From positions 124,001 through 188,000 of the forward strand of contig NZ_JACSNX010000003.1 in the NCBI RefSeq assembly GCF_016902445.1: DNA of 64,000 bases, read 5' to 3'. The notes beneath the pieces are model-generated. The model ran no database searches. It was not told where the DNA came from and was given only the letters and a program-made list of their open reading frames with translations. The stretch comes from Oscillibacter valericigenes. GTDB taxonomy: Bacteria; Bacillota; Clostridia; Oscillospirales; Oscillospiraceae. Position numbers and translations under genes: made by a program. Positions 1,673-13,762 of this stretch are shown one piece after another (position 1 is the stretch's first letter; the number at the start of each line of letters is the position of its first letter).

Positions 1673-2029
1673 TTGAAAGAAGTGGCAGAAAGATTGCGGT
1701 CTCTGCGGGAAAGTGTTAAGCTGTCCCAGGTTAAAATGGCCGAGATCGTCGGTGTCAAGCAATCCAGCCTGAACCGCTATGAGCTCAATCAGGCTTCACC
1801 GACCTTTGAAACACTTACCCGATATGCGGATTACTTTGATGTATCTATGGACTATATCTTTGGACGTACGGACAATCCTCAGGGCAAGCTGTATGAGTAC
1901 AAGCCTAAAATTCAGCAGAACGACCCCCAGATGCAGAAGTTTGTGGAAATGTGCTTTGACCCCACATCTCCTATGAATGCGCGGCTCAAGGAAGCGCTAC
2001 TGCAAATGCTTGGGGAGGCGAAACAATGA
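1673..2029 (+). CDS. XRE-family helix-turn-helix regulator
   Basis: 118 residues beginning with TTG (ribosome binding site GGGGGTG about 6 bases upstream). An XRE/Cro-type helix-turn-helix covers roughly residues 5-62: LRSLRESVKLSQVKMAEIVGV is followed by QSSLNRYELNQASP and then LTRYADYFDVSMDYIFGR, the typical five-helix layout. The tail (about 65-118) is unassigned. The stop overlaps the ATG of the serine recombinase, so the two are co-translated. In integrative elements such a pair usually means a repressor controlling the integrase. It probably binds the imperfect inverted repeat over its own promoter. The family call is firm; the repressor role is inferred from context. Confidence 0.85.
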   Translation: MKEVAERLRSLRESVKLSQVKMAEIVGVKQSSLNRYELNQASPTFETLTRYADYFDVSMDYIFGRTDNPQGKLYEYKPKIQQNDPQMQKFVEMCFDPTSPMNARLKEALLQMLGEAKQ

Positions 2030-3540
2030 ATGTTGTTATCTACGCCCGCTACTCCAGTCATAGCCAGACCGAGCAATCCATTGAGGGACAGCTCCATACC
2101 TGTTATGAGTATGCTAAAAACAACGGCTATCTTGTTGTTGGAGAGTACATTGACCGTGCGCAAAGCGGAACCACCGATAGCCGCGCCGAGTTCCAGCGAA
2201 TGATTGCCGACAGTGACAAGCACACCTTTGAGGGCGTTCTTGTATATCAGCTTGACCGTTTTGCTCGCAACCGATATGACAGTGCCATCAACAAGGCAAA
2301 ACTGAAAAAGAACGGTGTACGGGTGATCTCCGCACGGGAAAACATCAGCGATGATGCCAGCGGCATTCTGGTGGAAGGTGTTCTGGAAAGTATGGCTGAA
2401 TACTACTCAGCGGAGCTTTCCCAAAAGATTCGCCGGGGCATGGAGATCAATGCACAAAAGTGTTTGGCCAATGGTAGCAATCCTGGTTTGGGCTATAAGG
2501 TGGATTCCGAACGTCGGTACTATGTGGATGAGGAAGAAGCAAAAATCGTTCGGGAGATTTTTGAACGGTATGCCAGTGGAGAAACAGTTGCAGACATTAT
2601 CCGTGATTTGAACCGCAGAAAGCTCACGACTTCTCTTGGCAAACCCTTTAATAAAAACAGCGTCCACCGCATTTTGAACAACCGGCGTTACATCGGGTAT
2701 TACCTCTACAAAGGACAGGAAACGCCGGGCGGTATGCCTCGTATCATTGAAGATGAGCTGTTTGAGCGTGTCCACTATATCCTTGATCGCAACAAAAAAG
2801 CACCTGCCCGAGCTAGAGGGCGGGAAGAGTATCTGCTCACCACAAAGCTGTTCTGTGGCTACTGCCGGGAGATGATGACCGGTTACGGTGGTACAGGAAA
2901 ATCCGGCAAGACCTATCACTACTATGCCTGCAATAATTTCAAACGGCGCAAATGTAAAAAGAAGGTTATCGGTAAAGAGAGAATTGAGGATCGTGTGGTG
3001 TTGGAGTGCCGCAAGTTGCTGACAGATAGCAACATTGAGCGGATCGCAGCTTCGGTATCCGAGGTCTGTGAATCCAACCGGGACACTGCATCCATCAAAC
3101 GCATCAGAGCTGCCATCCAGGAAGCAGACACCGCCATTGAAAATCTCTGGAAGGCGTTGGAGCGGGGACAGGCGGCCGACATGATTACTGAGCGGATTGA
3201 AAAACGCCAGCACGAAAAAGAGGAGCTGCAAGCACAGCTGGCTGTCGAGATGGCGAAGCAGGTGACTTTGACAGCACCCCAGGTTAGAGCCTATCTCTAC
3301 TCGCTCAGGCAAGGAGACAAGAACGACGAGAACATAAAGCGTGGGATCATCAATATCTTCCTCCGGGCGGTATATTTGTATGATGACCGGTTCACCTTGG
3401 TTTTGAACGGCAGCGACAAGACAATCACAATTGATGACATCCTGCTGGACGAGATTGAGGAGGGACTTGAGGGTGACCTGACCAGCTGCGAAGGGTGTTC
3501 ATCGTTGGTTGCGGACGCTCCACCAAAAAGAAAGACATGA
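2026..3540 (+). CDS. Large serine recombinase (integrase of a mobile element)
   Basis: 504 residues. An N-terminal resolvase catalytic domain (about 1-150) starts with IYARYSS, the predicted nucleophile being Ser10, and continues with YQLDRFARN and a long helix. A 'Recombinase' domain follows (about 160-265, including RRYIGYYLYKG). A zinc ribbon (about 278-330) carries CGYC and a later C-x7-C pair. A coiled coil rich in Glu/Lys/Ala (about 350-400) comes before the tail. This is the full layout of the large serine integrases that move phages, ICEs and transposons such as Tn4451-like elements. It lies at the AT-rich/GC-rich boundary, so the element end (attL or attR) should be close to 3540. 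The stop codon sits inside a long hairpin terminator. Confidence 0.93.
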   Translation: MNVVIYARYSSHSQTEQSIEGQLHTCYEYAKNNGYLVVGEYIDRAQSGTTDSRAEFQRMIADSDKHTFEGVLVYQLDRFARNRYDSAINKAKLKKNGVRVISARENISDDASGILVEGVLESMAEYYSAELSQKIRRGMEINAQKCLANGSNPGLGYKVDSERRYYVDEEEAKIVREIFERYASGETVADIIRDLNRRKLTTSLGKPFNKNSVHRILNNRRYIGYYLYKGQETPGGMPRIIEDELFERVHYILDRNKKAPARARGREEYLLTTKLFCGYCREMMTGYGGTGKSGKTYHYYACNNFKRRKCKKKVIGKERIEDRVVLECRKLLTDSNIERIAASVSEVCESNRDTASIKRIRAAIQEADTAIENLWKALERGQAADMITERIEKRQHEKEELQAQLAVEMAKQVTLTAPQVRAYLYSLRQGDKNDENIKRGIINIFLRAVYLYDDRFTLVLNGSDKTITIDDILLDEIEEGLEGDLTSCEGCSSLVADAPPKRKT

Positions 3541-3944: not shown

Positions 3945-5726
3945 TCACCCATTCTGGGCATCGATCTGCTCCTTCAGCTCGTTGAGATACACCCACCGCT
4001 CCGTCTTCTCCTCCAGGGCGGCCTCCAGCTCCGCCTGCCGGGCCTGGAGCTCCTGGAGCTTCACGTAGTCGCTGCCGCAGGCCGCCTGCTCCGCCTGGCA
4101 GGCGGCCAGGTCCGCCTCCAGCTGGGCCAGGTCGTCGTCGATGGTCTCGAATTCCCGCTGCTCCTTGAAGGAGAATTTCAGTTTCCGCTCCCGGGGCCGC
4201 TCCTGTGCGGGCTTGGGCTTTTCCGCCTTGGGGGCGGGGGCCTCCGCCTCCCGGCGCTTGGCCTGCCAGTCGGACCAGTTGCCGGTGAAGCGGTCGATCT
4301 CCCCGTCTCCCCGGACCTCGAAGATGGACTCCGCCAGCTTGTCCAGGAAGAAGCGGTCGTGGGACACCGCCAGAATGGGGCCGGGGAAGCCCTGCAGATA
4401 GTCCTCCAGGATGGAGAGGGTGGTCACGTCCAGGTCGTTGGTGGGCTCGTCCAGCAGCAGCACGTTGGGGGCCTCCATCAGCACGGACAGCAGATACAGC
4501 CGCCGCCGCTCCCCGCCGGAGAGCCGCCCGATGGGCACGGACTGGAGATCCCCGGGGAAGAGGAACCGCTCCATCATCTGGTTGGCGGAGAAGGTGCCCT
4601 CGTCGGTCTTTACCTCGTCGGCGATGTCGTGGATGAAGTCGTAGACCCGCTGTTGGAGGTCCAGCTCCCGGCCCTCCTGGGAGAAGTGGCCGATCTTCAC
4701 CGTGGCGCCCACCTCCACCGTGCCGCTGTCCGGCGCCAGCTCCCCGGCGATCAGGTGGAGCAGGGTGGACTTGCCGGCGCCGTTGCGGCCCACGATGCCG
4801 ATGCGGTCGTTCCGCAGCAGGTTGTAGGAGAAGTGGCTGACGATGGGCCGCCCGTCAAAGGACTTGGACACGTCGTGGAGCTCGATGATCTTCTTCCCCA
4901 GGCGGCTGGAGGCCGCCGCCATCTGGACGGCTTCGTCCGTCTCCGGCGCGTCCTGGTCCAGCAGGGCCTCGTACCGCTGGATGCGCTCCTTGGACTTGGT
5001 GGTGCGGGCCTTGCAGCCCCGCATGATCCACTCCCGCTCCACCCGGAGGATGGACTGACGCTTGCGCTCACTGGCCTCCGCCATCTCCTGCCGCTGCTCC
5101 CGCAGCTCCAGGTACTTGGAATAGTTGGCCTCGTAGTGGTACAGCTTTCCCCGGGAGAGCTCCGTGATGTGGTTCACCACCCGCTCCAGGAAATACCGGT
5201 CGTGGGTCACCATGACGAGGCCGCCCTTGAACCGGCGGAGCCAGTCCTCCAGCCAGGATACCATCTCGCTGTCCAGGTGGTTGGTGGGCTCGTCCAAAAT
5301 CAGCACGTCCGCCGGGTGGATGAGGGCCGCCGCCAGGGCCACCCGCTTCCGCTGTCCGCCGGAGAGGGTGCCCACCTTCTGGGAGAAATCCGTGATGCCC
5401 AGCCGGTTCAGCATGGCCTTGGCCTCGTATTCGTTCAGTGCCCGGAACTCGGCGGGGAAGTGGAGAAAGACCTGCTCCAGCACGGTGGCGTCCTCATCCA
5501 TCACCGGGTTCTGGGAGAGGAGGCTGATCTGGACGTTGGGGTTCCGGGAGATGGTGCCGCCGTCCGGCTCCGTGACGCCGGAGAGCACCTTTAGAAAGGT
5601 GGACTTGCCGGTGCCGTTGATGCCGATGACGCCCACCTTGTCCCCCTCGTTGAGGTAGAAGTTCACATCGTCCAGCAGCTGGCGGCTGCCGAAGTTGATG
5701 GAGAGATGTTCCGCGGATAAGAGCAT
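3945..5726 (-). CDS. ABC-F family ATP-binding protein (ribosome-associated)
   Basis: 593 residues from the ATG at 5724-5726, which has AGGAGG 7 bases upstream; a longer in-frame extension to about 6551 is not used because it lacks a ribosome binding site and reads through a separate gene. Two ABC ATPase domains are visible: Walker A GINGTGKS (35-42), signature LSGGQ (121-125), Walker B LILDEPTNHLD, then a charged linker (about 190-275), a second Walker A GRNGAGKS (313-320) and LSGGE plus LLLDEPTNDLD. A Lys/Glu-rich coiled coil ends the protein (about 530-593), as in Uup/YfmR-type members. There are no membrane segments, so it is not a transporter. ABC-F proteins act on stalled ribosomes or protect against ribosome antibiotics; which role applies cannot be told. 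Confidence 0.93.
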   Translation of the reverse strand: MLLSAEHLSINFGSRQLLDDVNFYLNEGDKVGVIGINGTGKSTFLKVLSGVTEPDGGTISRNPNVQISLLSQNPVMDEDATVLEQVFLHFPAEFRALNEYEAKAMLNRLGITDFSQKVGTLSGGQRKRVALAAALIHPADVLILDEPTNHLDSEMVSWLEDWLRRFKGGLVMVTHDRYFLERVVNHITELSRGKLYHYEANYSKYLELREQRQEMAEASERKRQSILRVEREWIMRGCKARTTKSKERIQRYEALLDQDAPETDEAVQMAAASSRLGKKIIELHDVSKSFDGRPIVSHFSYNLLRNDRIGIVGRNGAGKSTLLHLIAGELAPDSGTVEVGATVKIGHFSQEGRELDLQQRVYDFIHDIADEVKTDEGTFSANQMMERFLFPGDLQSVPIGRLSGGERRRLYLLSVLMEAPNVLLLDEPTNDLDVTTLSILEDYLQGFPGPILAVSHDRFFLDKLAESIFEVRGDGEIDRFTGNWSDWQAKRREAEAPAPKAEKPKPAQERPRERKLKFSFKEQREFETIDDDLAQLEADLAACQAEQAACGSDYVKLQELQARQAELEAALEEKTERWVYLNELKEQIDAQNG

Positions 5727-7768: not shown

Positions 7769-8434
7769 TTATGAGTGCTCTGCCGTGGTATCCAGCAGCT
7801 CCTGGAGCTCCAGGAAGAAGCGGGACAGGTGGAACCCGTCCGCCACGGCGTGGTGGATATTCAGGGAGACCGACAGGACCGTCCGCGCACCCTCCCGCTC
7901 ATACTTTCCCCAGGTGACCACCGGGGCCAGATAGGTGCCGCTGTCAAAGATGTGCATATCAAAGCTGCGGTACCGGACCCAGGGCAGGCAGGACACGTCG
8001 AAGGTGTTGGGCGGCACGTCCGTCAGGTCGAAGTGGTCCAGGGCGGCATACCGCCGGCGGTCCTCCAGAAAGCGGCGGTGGAAGGTCTCCAGGTCTGTGT
8101 CAAAGGGCGTCACCAGCTTCACGAAGGTCTCCCGGTCCGGGTGGAAGTGGGCGTAGTAGGGTTCGATCCGGTCCCAAAGGACCAGCCGCCCCCGCTTATC
8201 CCAGCCGTACCGGAACTCCGCATGGGCGTTGAGCACCTTGGATACCGCCCAGATCATGGCGGGATAGAAGGAAAAGCTGCCGGAGCGGAGCCGGCCCAGG
8301 AACCGGGACACCTCCATGTCCACGGTCAGGCTCATGACACAGCGCAGGTCGTCGATAAAGTGCCGGAACACGGGCCCCCGGTCCCAGGCGTCCAGGTCCA
8401 CCACTGTGTGGGTGGGGATCAAATTGTCGTTCAT
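7769..8434 (-). CDS. Type A chloramphenicol acetyltransferase-like protein
   Basis: 221 residues, the usual length of CatA enzymes. The active-site block NIHHAVADGFH places the catalytic histidine at about residue 195. In classical CATs the residue before DGFH is Cys, here Ala. Other family blocks visible are FSFYPAMIWAVSKVLN, EFRYGW and SCLPWVRYRSFD. The expected reaction is acetyl-CoA-dependent O-acetylation of chloramphenicol or a related hydroxylated compound in the cytoplasm. The upstream leader and hairpin copy the architecture of inducible cat genes, which strengthens the resistance call. Whether it inactivates chloramphenicol well is not proven by sequence, since the family includes many uncharacterised gut members. 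Confidence 0.85.
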   Translation of the reverse strand: MNDNLIPTHTVVDLDAWDRGPVFRHFIDDLRCVMSLTVDMEVSRFLGRLRSGSFSFYPAMIWAVSKVLNAHAEFRYGWDKRGRLVLWDRIEPYYAHFHPDRETFVKLVTPFDTDLETFHRRFLEDRRRYAALDHFDLTDVPPNTFDVSCLPWVRYRSFDMHIFDSGTYLAPVVTWGKYEREGARTVLSVSLNIHHAVADGFHLSRFFLELQELLDTTAEHS

Positions 8435-8438
8435 AAAA

Positions 8439-8471
8439 GCCTCCTAAAATCGATTTGGTATTTTAGGAGGC
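8439..8471 (-). promoter_or_regulatory. Hairpin sequestering the cat ribosome binding site (translational attenuator)
   Basis: 12-bp perfect inverted repeat, 8439-8450 against 8460-8471, with a 9-base loop. In the transcript the 3' arm contains AGGAGG and ends 4 bases before the cat ATG, so the ribosome binding site is buried. The 5' arm overlaps the last codons and stop of the leader peptide. Confidence 0.85.
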
Positions 8472-8492
8472 GTCATCCAGTCCACGCTTCAC
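8463..8492 (-). CDS. Nine-residue cat leader peptide MKRGLDDAS
   Basis: GTG start at 8492-8490 with AGGGGAGG 7 bases upstream, nine codons, and a TAA whose bases lie in the 5' arm of the attenuator hairpin. The cat-86 and pC194-type leaders are also nine codons ending inside the stem. The residues resemble those leaders loosely (MK-basic start, Asp in the middle, Ser at the end). A ribosome stalled in this leader would open the stem and expose the cat start. This is known for the family; here it is inferred from architecture. Confidence 0.75.
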   Translation of the reverse strand: MKRGLDDAS

Positions 8493-8522
8493 AGGGCATC
8501 CTCCCCTCTGAAAGATACCACC

Positions 8523-8551
8523 ATTTTATCCGGCATGGACCGGGAAGTCAA
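8523..8551 (-). promoter_or_regulatory. Sigma-A promoter of the leader-cat transcript
   Basis: On the minus strand TTGACT (8551-8546), 17-base spacer, TAAAAT (8528-8523). Transcription would start about 20 bases before the leader GTG. Confidence 0.75.
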
Positions 8552-8564
8552 CCAGAGGGACCTC

Positions 8565-8593
8565 TTGACAATTCCGCCCCGGCGCCCTATCCT
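8565..8593 (+). promoter_or_regulatory. Sigma-A promoter of the DnaQ-like exonuclease
   Basis: TTGACA (8565-8570), 17-base spacer, TATCCT (8588-8593), 31 bases before the ATG. It is back to back with the cat promoter, with only about 14 bases between the two -35 boxes. Confidence 0.7.
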
Positions 8594-9507: not shown

Positions 9508-10161
9508 GTGCCGAGCAGCACCTTTTTAAATCTGCCGGCGGAAAAGCAGGAGAAGCTGTTGAAGGCGGCCACCCGGGAGTTCTCCCACCGGCCGTTCAAT
9601 GAGGCGTCCATCAATCAGATCATCAAGGAAGCAGGCATCCCCAGAGGCAGCTTCTACATGTATTTTCAGGATAAGGAGGACCTGTTCCGCTATCTGCTGA
9701 GAGGCTATGTGGATCAGCTCTTCATGCTGCTGGAGGAGTTTCTGCTGCAAAACGGCGGAGACATTTTCCAGGCGCTGCTGGCGCTGTATGACTATGTCCA
9801 GACAAGGACCGACCAGATGGACCTGGGCGAGATCGGCGCCATGATCGGGATCATCCGGTGCAACAGCGGGATGCAGAAAAACGGCCTGCTGGAAATGCTG
9901 GATCCGGAGGTGATCCTGCGGCGTCTGGGCAGTGCGGTGAACCAGGACCTGCTGGACCTGCGGAGGGACCGGGACTTGGGCGATATCCTGGGGGCGCTGC
10001 TGGTGGTGGCGGCTCCCATGATCTACACCGGCCTGCAGGCCGGTGGCGATCCCGCTCTGCGGGATCGCCTGGAGAATATCCTGAACATCTTCAGACGCGG
10101 CATGGGAAAGCAGCCCACCGCAGAAATCGAGAACAAGGAGACTACATACCATGGAAACTGA
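9508..10161 (+). CDS. TetR-family repressor of the export operon
   Basis: 217 residues with a GTG start (AAGGATGAGG upstream). The N-terminal helix-turn-helix (about 10-55) reads KLLKAATREFSHRPFNEASINQIIKEAGIPRGSFYMYFQDKEDLF without gaps relative to the family, followed by a helical ligand-binding domain. It overlaps the adaptor gene by 11 bases and is first in a four-gene operon with a MacAB-like exporter. The two palindromes at its promoter argue for autorepression, relieved by an exported compound. Confidence 0.9.
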   Translation: MPSSTFLNLPAEKQEKLLKAATREFSHRPFNEASINQIIKEAGIPRGSFYMYFQDKEDLFRYLLRGYVDQLFMLLEEFLLQNGGDIFQALLALYDYVQTRTDQMDLGEIGAMIGIIRCNSGMQKNGLLEMLDPEVILRRLGSAVNQDLLDLRRDRDLGDILGALLVVAAPMIYTGLQAGGDPALRDRLENILNIFRRGMGKQPTAEIENKETTYHGN

Positions 10162-11794
10162 ATGGATGAATGAGACCTCTGCGGAGCCGCAGAGCGCACC
10201 TGCGCCGGAAAAGCAGGAGAAAAAGAAGTTCTCTCTGAAAGGCCTTGGCGGAAAGAAAAAGAAACGCTGGCTGAAGATCCTCATCGTCCTGGTGGTCGTG
10301 GCGGCCGTCGTGGTGGGCTGCGTGTCGAATATGACGAAAAACGTCAATAACCAGCTCAGCAGCAGTTATCTGGTGGCCACTGCTGCCCGGCAGGATCTGA
10401 CGGTCAGCGTCTCCGGCACCGCCACACTGCAGCCAGCGGACTCCTACAACGTCACCACGCTGCTGTCCGGCGACATCGTCAGCGCCCCCTTTGAGGAGGG
10501 CGACCTGGTGGCGAAGGATACCCTGCTGTACACCATGGACAGCAGCGATGCCCAGGACTCCATGGACCGGGCCCAGATCTCTGTGCAGCAGGCCCAGCTG
10601 GCCTATCAGCAGGCACAGGAGGCCCTGCATCCCACTGCCACCATCTCCGGTACGGTGAGCGAGATCTACGTCCATAACGGTGAGAGCGTCAACGCGGGGG
10701 CCCAGCTGGCAAAGATCGTTGCCAACACAGAGCTGTCCATCGATTTTCTGTTCCCCTTCGCCGCTCCCAGCGATTTCTATGTGGGGCAGTCTGCCACGGT
10801 GTTCGTGGACGGATACGCCGGCTCTCAGATGGGCACGGTGACCTATGTGTCCAATTCCTCCACCATCACCAGCAACGGCAAGCAGGCCGTGTCGGTCCGG
10901 GTGCGGCTGAACAACCCCGGCGCGGTCTCTGACGCGGTCACTGCCTCCGCCGTCATCGGAAATTACAGCAGCTACGGGCAGTCCCCGGTATCCATGCCGG
11001 CATCCACCATCGTGTATGCGGCCGGCTCCGGCACGGTGAACGACTTTACCAAGCTGGCCGGCAGCACGGTGACGAAGGGCGAGGTGCTGTGCACCGTGGA
11101 GTCTGAGACCATCCGGGATCAGATCGAAAACGCCCGGCTGAGCCTGCAGTCCGCACAGCTCAGCGCCAGCACCGCTGCGGATTCCGTGGATGACTACAAT
11201 ATCAAGTCTCCCATTTCCGGCACGGTGATCGAAAAGAACTTCAAGGCCGGCGACAAGGTGGACGGCGCTTCCTCCGGCACCCTGGCCGTCATCTATGACC
11301 TGAGCTATCTGAAGCTGGAGATGGCCGTGGCTGAGCTGGACATCGGCAAAGTTGAGGTGGGCCAGAGAGTGGAGATCACGGCCGACGCTCTGGAGGGGCA
11401 GACCTTTGAGGGCGTGGTGGATAAGGTCAGCATCAACGGCACCACCACCAACGGCTTCACCAACTACCCGGTGACGATCATCATCGAAGACTACGGCGAC
11501 CTGAAGCCGGGCATGAACGTCTCCGCGGAGATCATCGGCGAGGAGATCCCCAACGCCCTCTGCATCCCTGTGGATGCGGTGGACCGGGGCAACACCGTGA
11601 CGGTGCCCGGCCCCGGCGCCCTGAATGAGGACGGCACTGCCGTGGTGGACATCACCAAGCTGGAGACCAAGGAGGTCACCCTGGGCCGCAGCGACGACGA
11701 GTACATCGAGGTCACCGGCGGCCTGGAGGCTGGCGATGTGGTCCTGATCAGGAACCAGGCCTCCACGTTGATGGATATGATGATGGGAGGCTGA
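10151..11794 (+). CDS. MacA/HlyD-like adaptor subunit of an ABC exporter
   Basis: 547 residues. A Lys-rich cytoplasmic head (about 1-38, with KKKKRWLK) precedes one membrane segment (ILIVLVVVAAVVVGCV, about 40-57), so it is anchored with the rest outside. Two biotinyl-lipoyl-like half motifs are visible, one near 75-130 and another near 280-400 (SPISGTVIEKNFKAGDKV). A Gln/Ala-rich helical hairpin (DRAQISVQQAQLAYQQAQEAL) sits between lipoyl halves, and beta-barrel segments follow. It links the MacB-type permease to an exit path or presents substrate. It is longer than usual because the hairpin/lipoyl unit appears partly duplicated. Confidence 0.88.
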   Translation: METEWMNETSAEPQSAPAPEKQEKKKFSLKGLGGKKKKRWLKILIVLVVVAAVVVGCVSNMTKNVNNQLSSSYLVATAARQDLTVSVSGTATLQPADSYNVTTLLSGDIVSAPFEEGDLVAKDTLLYTMDSSDAQDSMDRAQISVQQAQLAYQQAQEALHPTATISGTVSEIYVHNGESVNAGAQLAKIVANTELSIDFLFPFAAPSDFYVGQSATVFVDGYAGSQMGTVTYVSNSSTITSNGKQAVSVRVRLNNPGAVSDAVTASAVIGNYSSYGQSPVSMPASTIVYAAGSGTVNDFTKLAGSTVTKGEVLCTVESETIRDQIENARLSLQSAQLSASTAADSVDDYNIKSPISGTVIEKNFKAGDKVDGASSGTLAVIYDLSYLKLEMAVAELDIGKVEVGQRVEITADALEGQTFEGVVDKVSINGTTTNGFTNYPVTIIIEDYGDLKPGMNVSAEIIGEEIPNALCIPVDAVDRGNTVTVPGPGALNEDGTAVVDITKLETKEVTLGRSDDEYIEVTGGLEAGDVVLIRNQASTLMDMMMGG

Positions 11795-11798
11795 TCCC

Positions 11799-12542
11799 AT
11801 GGGCCATCTCATCGAGCTGAAAAATGTCTATAAGATCTACCAGATGGGAGAGGAGACCGTCCATGCCCTGGACGGCATCGACCTGACGGTGAATCAGGGA
11901 GAATTCGTGGCCATCGTGGGCTCCTCCGGCTCCGGCAAGTCCACAGCCATGAACATCATCGGCTGCCTGGATGTGCCGACTTCCGGAAGCTATCATCTGG
12001 GAGGGATCGATGTCTCCACCATGGAGGATGACCAGCAGGCCGAGATCCGCAACAAGATGCTGGGCTTCATTTTCCAGCAGTACAACCTGATCCCCAAGCT
12101 GACGGTGCAGGAGAATGTGGAGCTGCCGCTGCTGTATGCCGGCGTCTCCTCTGAGGAGCGCCATGAGCGGGCCATCCAGTCCCTGGAGCGGGTGGGTCTG
12201 GCCGACAAGCGGAAGAACCTGCCCAGCCAGCTCTCCGGCGGCCAGCAGCAGCGGGTGTCCATCGCCCGGGCCCTGGCGGGCAAGCCGTCGGTGATCCTGG
12301 CCGACGAGCCCACCGGCGCCCTGGACTCCCGGACGGGCCGGGAGGTGCTGCGATTCCTCCAGAAGCTGAATCAGGAGGGGGACACTGTGGTCCTCATCAC
12401 CCACGACAACTCCATCGCCGTCAGGGCCAAGCGCATCGTGCGCCTTCAGGACGGCCGGATCATCTACGACGGGGACGCCAGCGATCCCCAGGCAGTGGTC
12501 CAGCCCCAGGAGGACGACGCCGGAGAGGAGGTCCTGGCATGA
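11799..12542 (+). CDS. MacB/LolD-type ABC transporter ATP-binding protein
   Basis: 247 residues. Walker A GSSGSGKS (about 41-48), Q-loop [12 protein letters not shown], signature [15 protein letters not shown], Walker [13 protein letters not shown] and the H-loop THD are all present. [19 protein letters not shown] at the start is the hallmark of the MacB/LolD/FtsE-like group. It hydrolyses ATP for the permease encoded next (4-base overlap) together with the adaptor encoded before it. A Glu/Asp-rich tail of about 20 residues is added at the C-terminus. Confidence 0.93.
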
Positions 12543-13762
12543 ATTTCACCCAGTCCTTCAAGCTGGCCATCAAGTCCCTGATGCTCAGCAAGATGCGGGC
12601 CCTCTTGACCATGCTGGGCATCATCATCGGCGTGGCGGCCGTCATCATCATCACCAGCCTCGGCAACGGCATGCAGAACTACATGAACGCCCAGTTCGAG
12701 CAGCTGGGCTCCAACCTGATCCAGGTGATGGTCTATGGCCGGGGCGAGGAGAGCACCCGGGACGTGAGCCCGGATGACATGTACGCGCTGGTGGAGAAGT
12801 ACCCCCAGTATCTGTCCGGCGTCTCTCCCTATGTCACTGCCTCCGCCAATGTCCGGCAGGGGACGGAAGATTTTGAGCGCACCTCTGTCTACGGCGTCAG
12901 CGAGGCCTTTTACCGGGACGACACCCAGAAGACCATGCAGGGATCCACGTTGGAAGAGGGACGATTCCTCCGCTACATCGACGTGGAGCGGCAGCAGAAC
13001 GTATGCGTCATCGGCTCCTACATCGCGGAGAATGCCTTCCAGGGGGATCCGCTGGATCAGGAGATCTCTATCGGCGGCGTGCCCTACAAAGTTGTGGGCG
13101 TCCTGGCGGAGAGCGGCGACAGCAGCGAGGGCAGCGGAGATGATGTGATCTACATCCCCTATGCCAGAGCCCAGCGGATGGGCGGCGGATTCGGCGATAT
13201 GTACCTGATGACCAGCACCGACCGGGATACGGCGGCCACGGCCAAGGGCATCATCGAAAACCGGCTGCTGGATATCTACGAGTCCTCGGACGCCTATATG
13301 GTCATGACCTCTGCGGAGATGATGGATGCCATGGACTCCATGCTGAACACCCTGATGATGATCCTGATCCTCATCGCGGCCATCAGCCTGCTGGTGGGAG
13401 GCATCGGCATCATGAACATCATGCTGGTATCCGTCACGGAGCGGACCCGGGAGATCGGCATCCGGAAGTCCCTGGGCGCCAAGTGCCGGGATATCCGCAG
13501 CCAGTTCATCATCGAGGCCGGGACCACTTCCGCCATCGGCGGAGCCATCGGCATCGCGGTTGGCATCATCATGGCCAATGTGCTGACCAACGTCATCGCC
13601 CTGGTGCTGGGCACCGGGAACGACGGCTTTGTGGCTGTCCCGACGGCAGGCGGCATCGGCGTGGCCTTCGGCGTCTCTGTGGCGGTGGGCATCCTGTTCG
13701 GATACCTCCCCGCCAACAAGGCGGCAAAGCTGAATCCCATCGACGCGCTGCGCTACGACTGA
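12539..13762 (+). CDS. MacB-type ABC permease (FtsX-like)
   Basis: 407 residues. A first membrane helix (about 18-40, with MRALLTMLGIIIGVAAVIIITSLGNGM, the family start motif) is followed by a large external MacB periplasmic-like core domain (about 45-265) and three C-terminal helices in an FtsX/DUF214 domain (about 275-395). The coupling motif ERTREIGIRKSLGAK is intact. It forms the membrane part of the TetR-controlled exporter, the likely substrate being a peptide or macrolide-like compound. A terminator follows directly. Confidence 0.92.
   Translation: MNFTQSFKLAIKSLMLSKMRALLTMLGIIIGVAAVIIITSLGNGMQNYMNAQFEQLGSNLIQVMVYGRGEESTRDVSPDDMYALVEKYPQYLSGVSPYVTASANVRQGTEDFERTSVYGVSEAFYRDDTQKTMQGSTLEEGRFLRYIDVERQQNVCVIGSYIAENAFQGDPLDQEISIGGVPYKVVGVLAESGDSSEGSGDDVIYIPYARAQRMGGGFGDMYLMTSTDRDTAATAKGIIENRLLDIYESSDAYMVMTSAEMMDAMDSMLNTLMMILILIAAISLLVGGIGIMNIMLVSVTERTREIGIRKSLGAKCRDIRSQFIIEAGTTSAIGGAIGIAVGIIMANVLTNVIALVLGTGNDGFVAVPTAGGIGVAFGVSVAVGILFGYLPANKAAKLNPIDALRYD

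Follow-up and report, generated by a model that had tools for sequence, protein, structure and literature searches.

A putative translational attenuator upstream of a CatA-like gene in Oscillibacter valericigenes and related leaders of Vat-like and Mef-like genes

The stretch of Oscillibacter valericigenes DNA analysed here (64,000 nucleotides; "the window") carries on its minus strand a chloramphenicol acetyltransferase-like gene (cat) that is preceded by a short leader and a hairpin, which together very probably constitute a ribosome-operated translational attenuator. Comparison of sequences reveals the leader, the hairpin, the register between them, their conservation and covariation, and related leaders in front of Vat-like and Mef-like genes. 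Attenuators of this kind are known; on our best reading, what is new is the leader family, in which one type of leader, loosened in one branch, occurs with three unrelated resistance gene families and three RNA layouts. The elements of the window locus are:

8523..8551, minus strand: cat promoter, TTGACT-N17-TAAAAT, 10 of 12 consensus matches, the 17-nt spacing being the same in 5 of 5 loci (the window and four orthologues)
8500..8506, minus strand: leader Shine-Dalgarno (SD) sequence GGGGAGG, 7 nt 5' of the GTG
8463..8492, minus strand: leader open reading frame with GTG start, MKRGLDDAS (nine codons) plus TAA, reading GTG AAG CGT GGA CTG GAT GAC GCC TCC TAA
8475..8483, minus strand: leader codons 4-6 (Gly-Leu-Asp), where the ribosome is predicted to stall with its P site on codon 5, as suggested by truncation folding and conservation
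8460..8471, minus strand: 5' arm of the sequestering stem, GCCTCCTAAAAT, comprising leader codons 8 and 9, the stop codon and 3 nt
8439..8450, minus strand: 3' arm of the stem, ATTTTAGGAGGC, containing the cat SD AGGAGG (8445-8440)
7769..8434, minus strand: cat (ATG at 8434-8432), 221 aa, type A chloramphenicol-acetyltransferase-like, with the motif HHAVADG

The leader, with its own SD, lies directly 5' of cat, and a single promoter stands ahead of both. The promoter, the strong leader SD, the GTG followed by eight codons and the 12-bp stem had all been proposed in a first-pass annotation, and each was recovered on the minus strand. The stem (8471-8439) forms 12 of 12 pairs around a 9-nt loop; by folding, it overlaps the 3' end of the leader and sequesters the cat SD, and the coordinates place codons 8 and 9 and the stop within the 5' arm, as the annotation had described. 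The 101-nt region folds to -31.3 kcal/mol (z = -3.04), a value that 1 of 200 shuffles equalled, and a promoter scan of a 301-bp stretch returned 2 promoter-like sites, the second of which faces the divergent gene, versus 0.2 in shuffles. At Rfam gathering scores the window yielded only a tRNA, and 18 of the loci yielded one tRNA. In the minimum-energy fold, the leader's own SD lies inside a further predicted hairpin (GGUAUCUUUC/GGAGGAUGCC, 8519-8495, minus strand), a similar version of which was seen by eye in locus L038 but not in L036 or L037.

The cat product matches the Pfam CAT family (PF00302) at 186 bits and the NCBIfam CatA model NF000491 at 207 bits, below the equivalog cut-off of 270; its translation contains the CatA motif HHxxxDG, as HHAVADG, and the closest PDB sequences are solved CATs. 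A phage or plasmid origin of the gene was set aside: no DNA match was found among 50,697 phage records, no relative was encoded at the 5 stretches matched in a viral collection, and the 1644 plasmid records that match by protein are all below 60% identity, the best-placed at 51.9%. Adjoining the cat promoter but facing away from it, a promoter-like sequence, TTGACA-17-TATCCT (8565-8593, plus strand), precedes a gene for an RNase_T-type exonuclease, and a TetR regulator, an HlyD-like fusion protein, an ABC ATPase and a MacB/FtsX permease follow in a row nearby (9508-13762, plus strand). Elsewhere in the window are an open reading frame that resembles an ABC-F ATPase by eye (3945-5700, minus strand) and a large serine recombinase with Resolvase and Recombinase domains (2026-3540, plus strand), which suggests that an element has integrated close to where the window begins.

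Four Oscillibacter orthologues (L036-L039), with ~90% protein identity, keep the promoter, SD, GTG start, leader and stem. The first-pass annotation had named homologues without a conserved leader and stem as evidence against attenuation, and these orthologues retain both. The orthologous leaders read MKRGLDDAS (L037, L038), MKRGLDSAS (L039) and MKCGLDAAS (L036); those of L037 and L038 differ from the window by synonymous changes only, while L036 and L039 also carry replacements. The synonymous interchange of codons among the orthologues (CGT/CGC, CTG/CTT, GAT/GAC) is the signature of a translated peptide.

To place these leaders in a wider set, we used a motif, M[KRHE]x[GC][LIM], applied to short open reading frames with an SD no more than 170 nt upstream of the gene, and a stricter version in which residue 6 is D, E, V, A or G. 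From 115 cat loci, 108 were readable (L004 and L005 gave no usable hit; L040, L110, L112, L113 and L115 were dropped as partial or startless). The stricter motif occurred at 56 of the 108 loci and in 1 of 5350 dinucleotide-shuffled upstream regions; the looser motif found 56 cat loci and 4 shuffles. Among 670 other open reading frames in the fetched loci there were 3 motif hits, two of which were cat leaders met again, the other being L147. Counted by distinct gene, the window included, 47 of 94 cats have the leader, none of the 47 being below 48% identity to the query: 5 of 5 at 85% identity or above, 41 of 48 at 52-85%, 1 of 17 at 48-52% and 0 of 24 below that. Counting against attenuation, 7 of the 48 distinct cats at 52-85% and 16 of the 17 at 48-52% are without a leader. 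A longer leader, MKTQKSSKIGIAKTSLNI in our own reading, lies ~80 nt 5' of the cat of L088 (Gastranaerophilales) and falls outside the motif count; its K-I-G-I-A-K-T segment keeps the stem register, and its start codon is further upstream.

A pattern search also met MKxCI leaders 5' of a Vat-like acetyltransferase, a protein that scores 253 bits against NF000311 (cut-off 300) and 181 against CatB (cut-off 350). Homology searching placed one such leader, MKRCIVMAGIA, on another contig of the window's own genome (L003/L187) and another, MKLCIGYTGIVLKK, directly after a leader-bearing cat. The stricter motif was present at 26 of 45 vat-like loci versus 0 of 2250 shuffles, and the looser one at 28 loci versus 4 shuffles; one match, L193 (MEQGIAQLS), was excluded from the set as due to chance. 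By distinct gene, 21 of 38 vat-like genes have the leader. Tandem cat and vat-like genes with separate leaders were seen at eight fetched loci (seven distinct, L007 being the same as L041) and at L205. A related leader also precedes a Mef-like MFS pump, L202 (TIGR00900 163 bits, cut-off 320; MefC 117, cut-off 870), and all 12 of its homologues L248-L258 and L260, L252 having been read by eye and later confirmed. These Mef-like leaders are looser, 5 of 12 fitting the motif, with Cys at residue 4 in 7, Ala in 2 and Ser, Ile and Met in 1 each; codon 6 is GNN and codon 8 is GCT in all 12.

Searches with patterns that made no reference to the downstream gene returned the same gene families. In 291 genomes there were 5 places, 5 of 5 being leaders of vat-like or mef-like genes, and a pattern run on 200 genomes found 2 places, one cat and one mef-like. 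Four leaders (L116, L117, L134, L135) came from 20 places matched by a pattern that excluded GGA and GGG codons; among 29 places matched by another, L154 and the window's own were confirmed and the rest judged by eye; one further pattern demanded a pyrimidine as the first base of codon 8. A short pattern run on ten genomes matched 42 places in 9 of them, and the short open reading frames at the 30 places examined were cat and vat-like leaders except for L264, L274 and L287, which were judged chance. One of the remaining 12 places is the mef-like leader of G360. Patterns applied to viral collections (22 and 20 stretches) gave one true case, L233, an IMG/VR contig in which a Vat-like gene has the leader MKRCIVATDIAKHIK, and ten other short open reading frames judged chance; the pattern search of viral contigs found 0 of the type B layout described below. 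Searches of one PubMed Central library, by leader string and by topic, found no title or abstract that reports leaders of this kind.

Three RNA layouts accompany the leader, and in all three the pairing begins at leader codon 8. In layout A, that of the window, the cat SD is paired by the 3' end of the leader. In layout B, segment 1 (leader codons 8-12) pairs with segment 2 and segment 3 pairs with segment 4 (the SD region), and segment 1 can alternatively pair with segment 3; this layout was found in other cats and, by eye, at ten of twelve mef-like loci. In layout C, which is vat-like, leader codons 8-11 pair with the first five codons of the gene, the start codon included. Across 20 sequences of the type A stem, 97.5% of 240 cells were paired and 7 cells showed two-sided change, neither of which was reached in any of 500 shuffles; covariation was 0.203 versus 0.128, again with 0 of 500 shuffles as high, and the number of pairs with two-sided change, 3, was matched by 61 of 500 shuffles. 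When partners were swapped between loci, the number of 5000 permutations with energies as low as those of own partners was 0 for type A, 0 for type C (-19.9 kcal/mol for own partners versus -12.5 swapped) and, for type B, 1 for pairing 1:2, 0 for 3:4 and 0 for 1:3. Both the shuffle and swap controls leave kinship uncorrected, and L070 and L072 were omitted from the type B alignment, swap test and folding.

A quick tree of the cat proteins (midpoint-rooted, with 38 of 93 inner branches weak and L047 and L072 omitted for length) puts all 45 leader-bearing cats in one 70-row clade with support of 95, together with 24 rows that lack a leader and 1 that is ungrouped. On this tree, types A and B require 4 changes each, type B being nested. 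The Ala of HHAVADG, which the first-pass annotation had noted in place of the usual Cys, is the usual residue in this clade: within the tree set, 40 of the 45 cats with a leader have the motif, 17 of 22 in type A and 23 of 23 in type B, as do 20 of 48 leaderless cats. Two clade members come from bins labelled Synergistota (L052, with a type B leader) and Alphaproteobacteria (L093, leaderless), labels that would reflect either transfer or mis-binning.

Among known systems, the nearest to the window locus are the cat attenuators of the Staphylococcus plasmids pC221 and pC194, which likewise have a short leader and an anti-SD sequence, CCTCCTAAA, paired with the cat SD, and in all three the stem starts at leader nt 22. 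The enzymes of both plasmids fall outside the window's cat clade in the quick tree. The leader peptide of the window differs from either, as the first-pass annotation had stated; its further proposal of a nine-codon length shared with known genes holds for pC221 (MKKSEDYSS) but not for pC194, whose ATG-started leader, MKKADK, has six codons, although longer in-frame TTG-started readings exist. Residue 4 is Ser in pC221 and Ala in pC194, whereas it is Gly in the window. The attenuators of cat-86 (PMC4191407) and of cat and cmlA (PMC5418344) are similar to the window locus in that a stall-operated leader precedes a resistance gene of the chloramphenicol type. The ermC-type attenuators (PMC5418344, PMC4191407) are similar to type B in that the stalled ribosome decides between alternative pairings; type B differs from them in the rivalry of its segments 1 and 4 for segment 3, and the window is of the simpler type A.

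The leading edge of a ribosome lies ~15-17 nt past the first base of the P-site codon. The RNAs were refolded after stepwise trimming of the leader from its 5' end, to mimic covering by a ribosome, in predictions that take no account of the ribosome itself, tertiary contacts or folding order. At 16 of 16 type A loci, the predicted unpaired probability of the SD was at most 0.01 until nt 22 and then rose, to means of 0.35 (nt 25) and 0.46 (nt 28); L065, L084 and L191 were missed or mis-read in the type A and C folding (L065 and L084 were handled correctly in that of type B). Type C (19 loci) showed increased access to the start codon, from 0.23 to 0.63 at nt 31, and slightly decreased access to the SD, from 0.61 to 0.51, with L066 nearly unchanged. 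In type B, where segments 1 and 4 are rivals for segment 3, the most effective stall should be one that hides half of segment 1, and SD-to-start access in this type rose from a baseline of 0.36 to ~0.48 with nt 25-28 covered and fell back to 0.40 at late positions in cats, the corresponding values for mef-like loci being 0.33, 0.48-0.54 and 0.38 (L258 was left out). The mean over nt 25-30 exceeded baseline (p 0.001 cat, 0.003 mef-like), and a rise of at least 0.1, taken as the best of six positions, occurred at 13 of the 21 cat loci and 8 of the 11 mef-like ones, the predicted release being absent from part of the type B set; L009, L011, L050, L053, L062, L064, L084, L253 and L260 had no average rise. 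Together with the position of the leading edge, truncation folding thus points to a P site at codon 4 or codon 5.

Conservation of the leader codons is consistent with this position. Codon 6 starts with G in all 60 distinct cat and vat-like leaders and in all 12 mef-like ones (L116, L134, L135, L202/L248 and L260 were found by patterns that demanded this G; the loci found by homology were not), even though codon 6 in the cat and vat-like leaders encodes Asp, Val, Ala, Gly or Glu; a constraint on the nucleotide or in the A site may be at work. Residue 4 is Gly or Cys in all 60 motif-selected cat and vat-like leaders, a constancy of residues 4 and 5 that is partly selected since the motif fixes both positions. 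We infer from these data how the switch would operate. In the absence of drug, the 12-bp hairpin would lock the cat SD. With a drug of the peptidyl transferase centre present, a ribosome on the leader would stall early; in the likeliest arrangement, codon 5, a Leu or Ile codon that follows Gly or Cys, occupies the P site and the GNN of codon 6 the A site. The front of this ribosome would cover leader nt 22 to ~29 and open the 5' arm, and the cat SD, now free, would allow the enzyme to be made. On the folding models, an early stall close to codon 5 is somewhat more likely than not, with exceptions at some loci. According to PMC8987054, stalls caused by phenicols and linezolid favour Ala, then Ser or Thr, at the -1 position, which is residue 4 when codon 5 occupies the P site. 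The window has Gly there, and because Gly or Cys at residue 4 departs from this rule, the inducer need not be chloramphenicol. This mismatch bears on the inducer and not on the architecture, and a stall elsewhere in the leader would agree with the phenicol rule.

A stall of that kind, with codon 9 in the P site and Ala8 at -1, is a possible but doubtful alternative within the attenuator explanation. Of the 60 distinct cat and vat-like leaders, 41 encode Ala at codon 8, and all 12 mef-like leaders have GCT there, in keeping with the phenicol and linezolid rule (PMC8987054); types A and C would open, by folding, with a late stall too, and late covering of type B cats leaves access a little higher than its baseline (0.40 versus 0.36, Wilcoxon p 0.011). 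However, type B opens more with nt 25-30 covered than with nt 36-43 (p 0.004 cat, 0.005 mef-like), late covering of the mef-like RNAs is no different from baseline (p 0.21), codon 8 lies within the stem and is constrained by pairing, and pC221 and pC194 have Ser and Ala at residue 4 in the same register.

Two further explanations were weighed. It is very improbable that the hairpin, instead of hiding the SD, ends transcription (alone or together with the leader) or serves as a DNA operator. The repeat is a perfect 12-bp inverted repeat with a G+C-rich base, and TTTT directly follows it in the window and in L037, L038 and L039, but these make up the 4 of 20 type A loci with that feature, the different pairings of types B and C still bury the SD or start codon, and the leader changes are synonymous or conservative. 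Our terminator scan, which admits loops of 3-8 nt, is no test of the window hairpin because the 9-nt loop is beyond its reach, and because TTTT follows the stem there, termination in the window keeps a small probability. It is likewise improbable, if less so, that the hairpin is a constitutive brake on translation, behind a leader that is translated but senses no drug. The absence of the leader from many cat relatives fits such an arrangement, yet it makes little sense of the conserved residues ahead of the stem, the fixed register and the four-segment layout found in two gene families. The claim of the first-pass annotation that this is a cat translational attenuator is supported by a stem that covaries, by own partners that pair better than swapped ones and by an SD that is predicted to stay buried until ~25 nt are covered.

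A broader reading of the attenuator family, to which we give somewhat less than an even chance, is that a core M-K-x-[Gly/Cys]-[Leu/Ile]-(GNN) serves as a nascent-peptide sensor before the unrelated CatA-, Vat- and Mef-like genes, acting through three interchangeable switches and obeying a stall rule other than that for phenicols. The Mef-like leaders would be a relaxed form, the constant first G of codon 6 would sit in the A site, and the type B switch would be position-gated, answering best to a stall at one codon. The drug sensed would be one of the peptidyl transferase centre, the candidates being streptogramin A compounds, lincosamides and natural antibiotics of the gut.

Descriptions of resistance-gene leader peptides have usually taken one gene at a time. 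Here, relatives of phenicol acetyltransferases and of streptogramin acetyltransferases have one leader type in common, a looser version of which precedes an efflux pump, and most of the bins concerned are assigned to Clostridia. If the reading is correct, commensals would hold a set of inducible resistance genes that are silent without drug, the leaders would offer a clean test of how nascent chains containing Gly or Cys respond to drugs of the peptidyl transferase centre, and the leader would provide a sequence tag for finding further genes of this kind.
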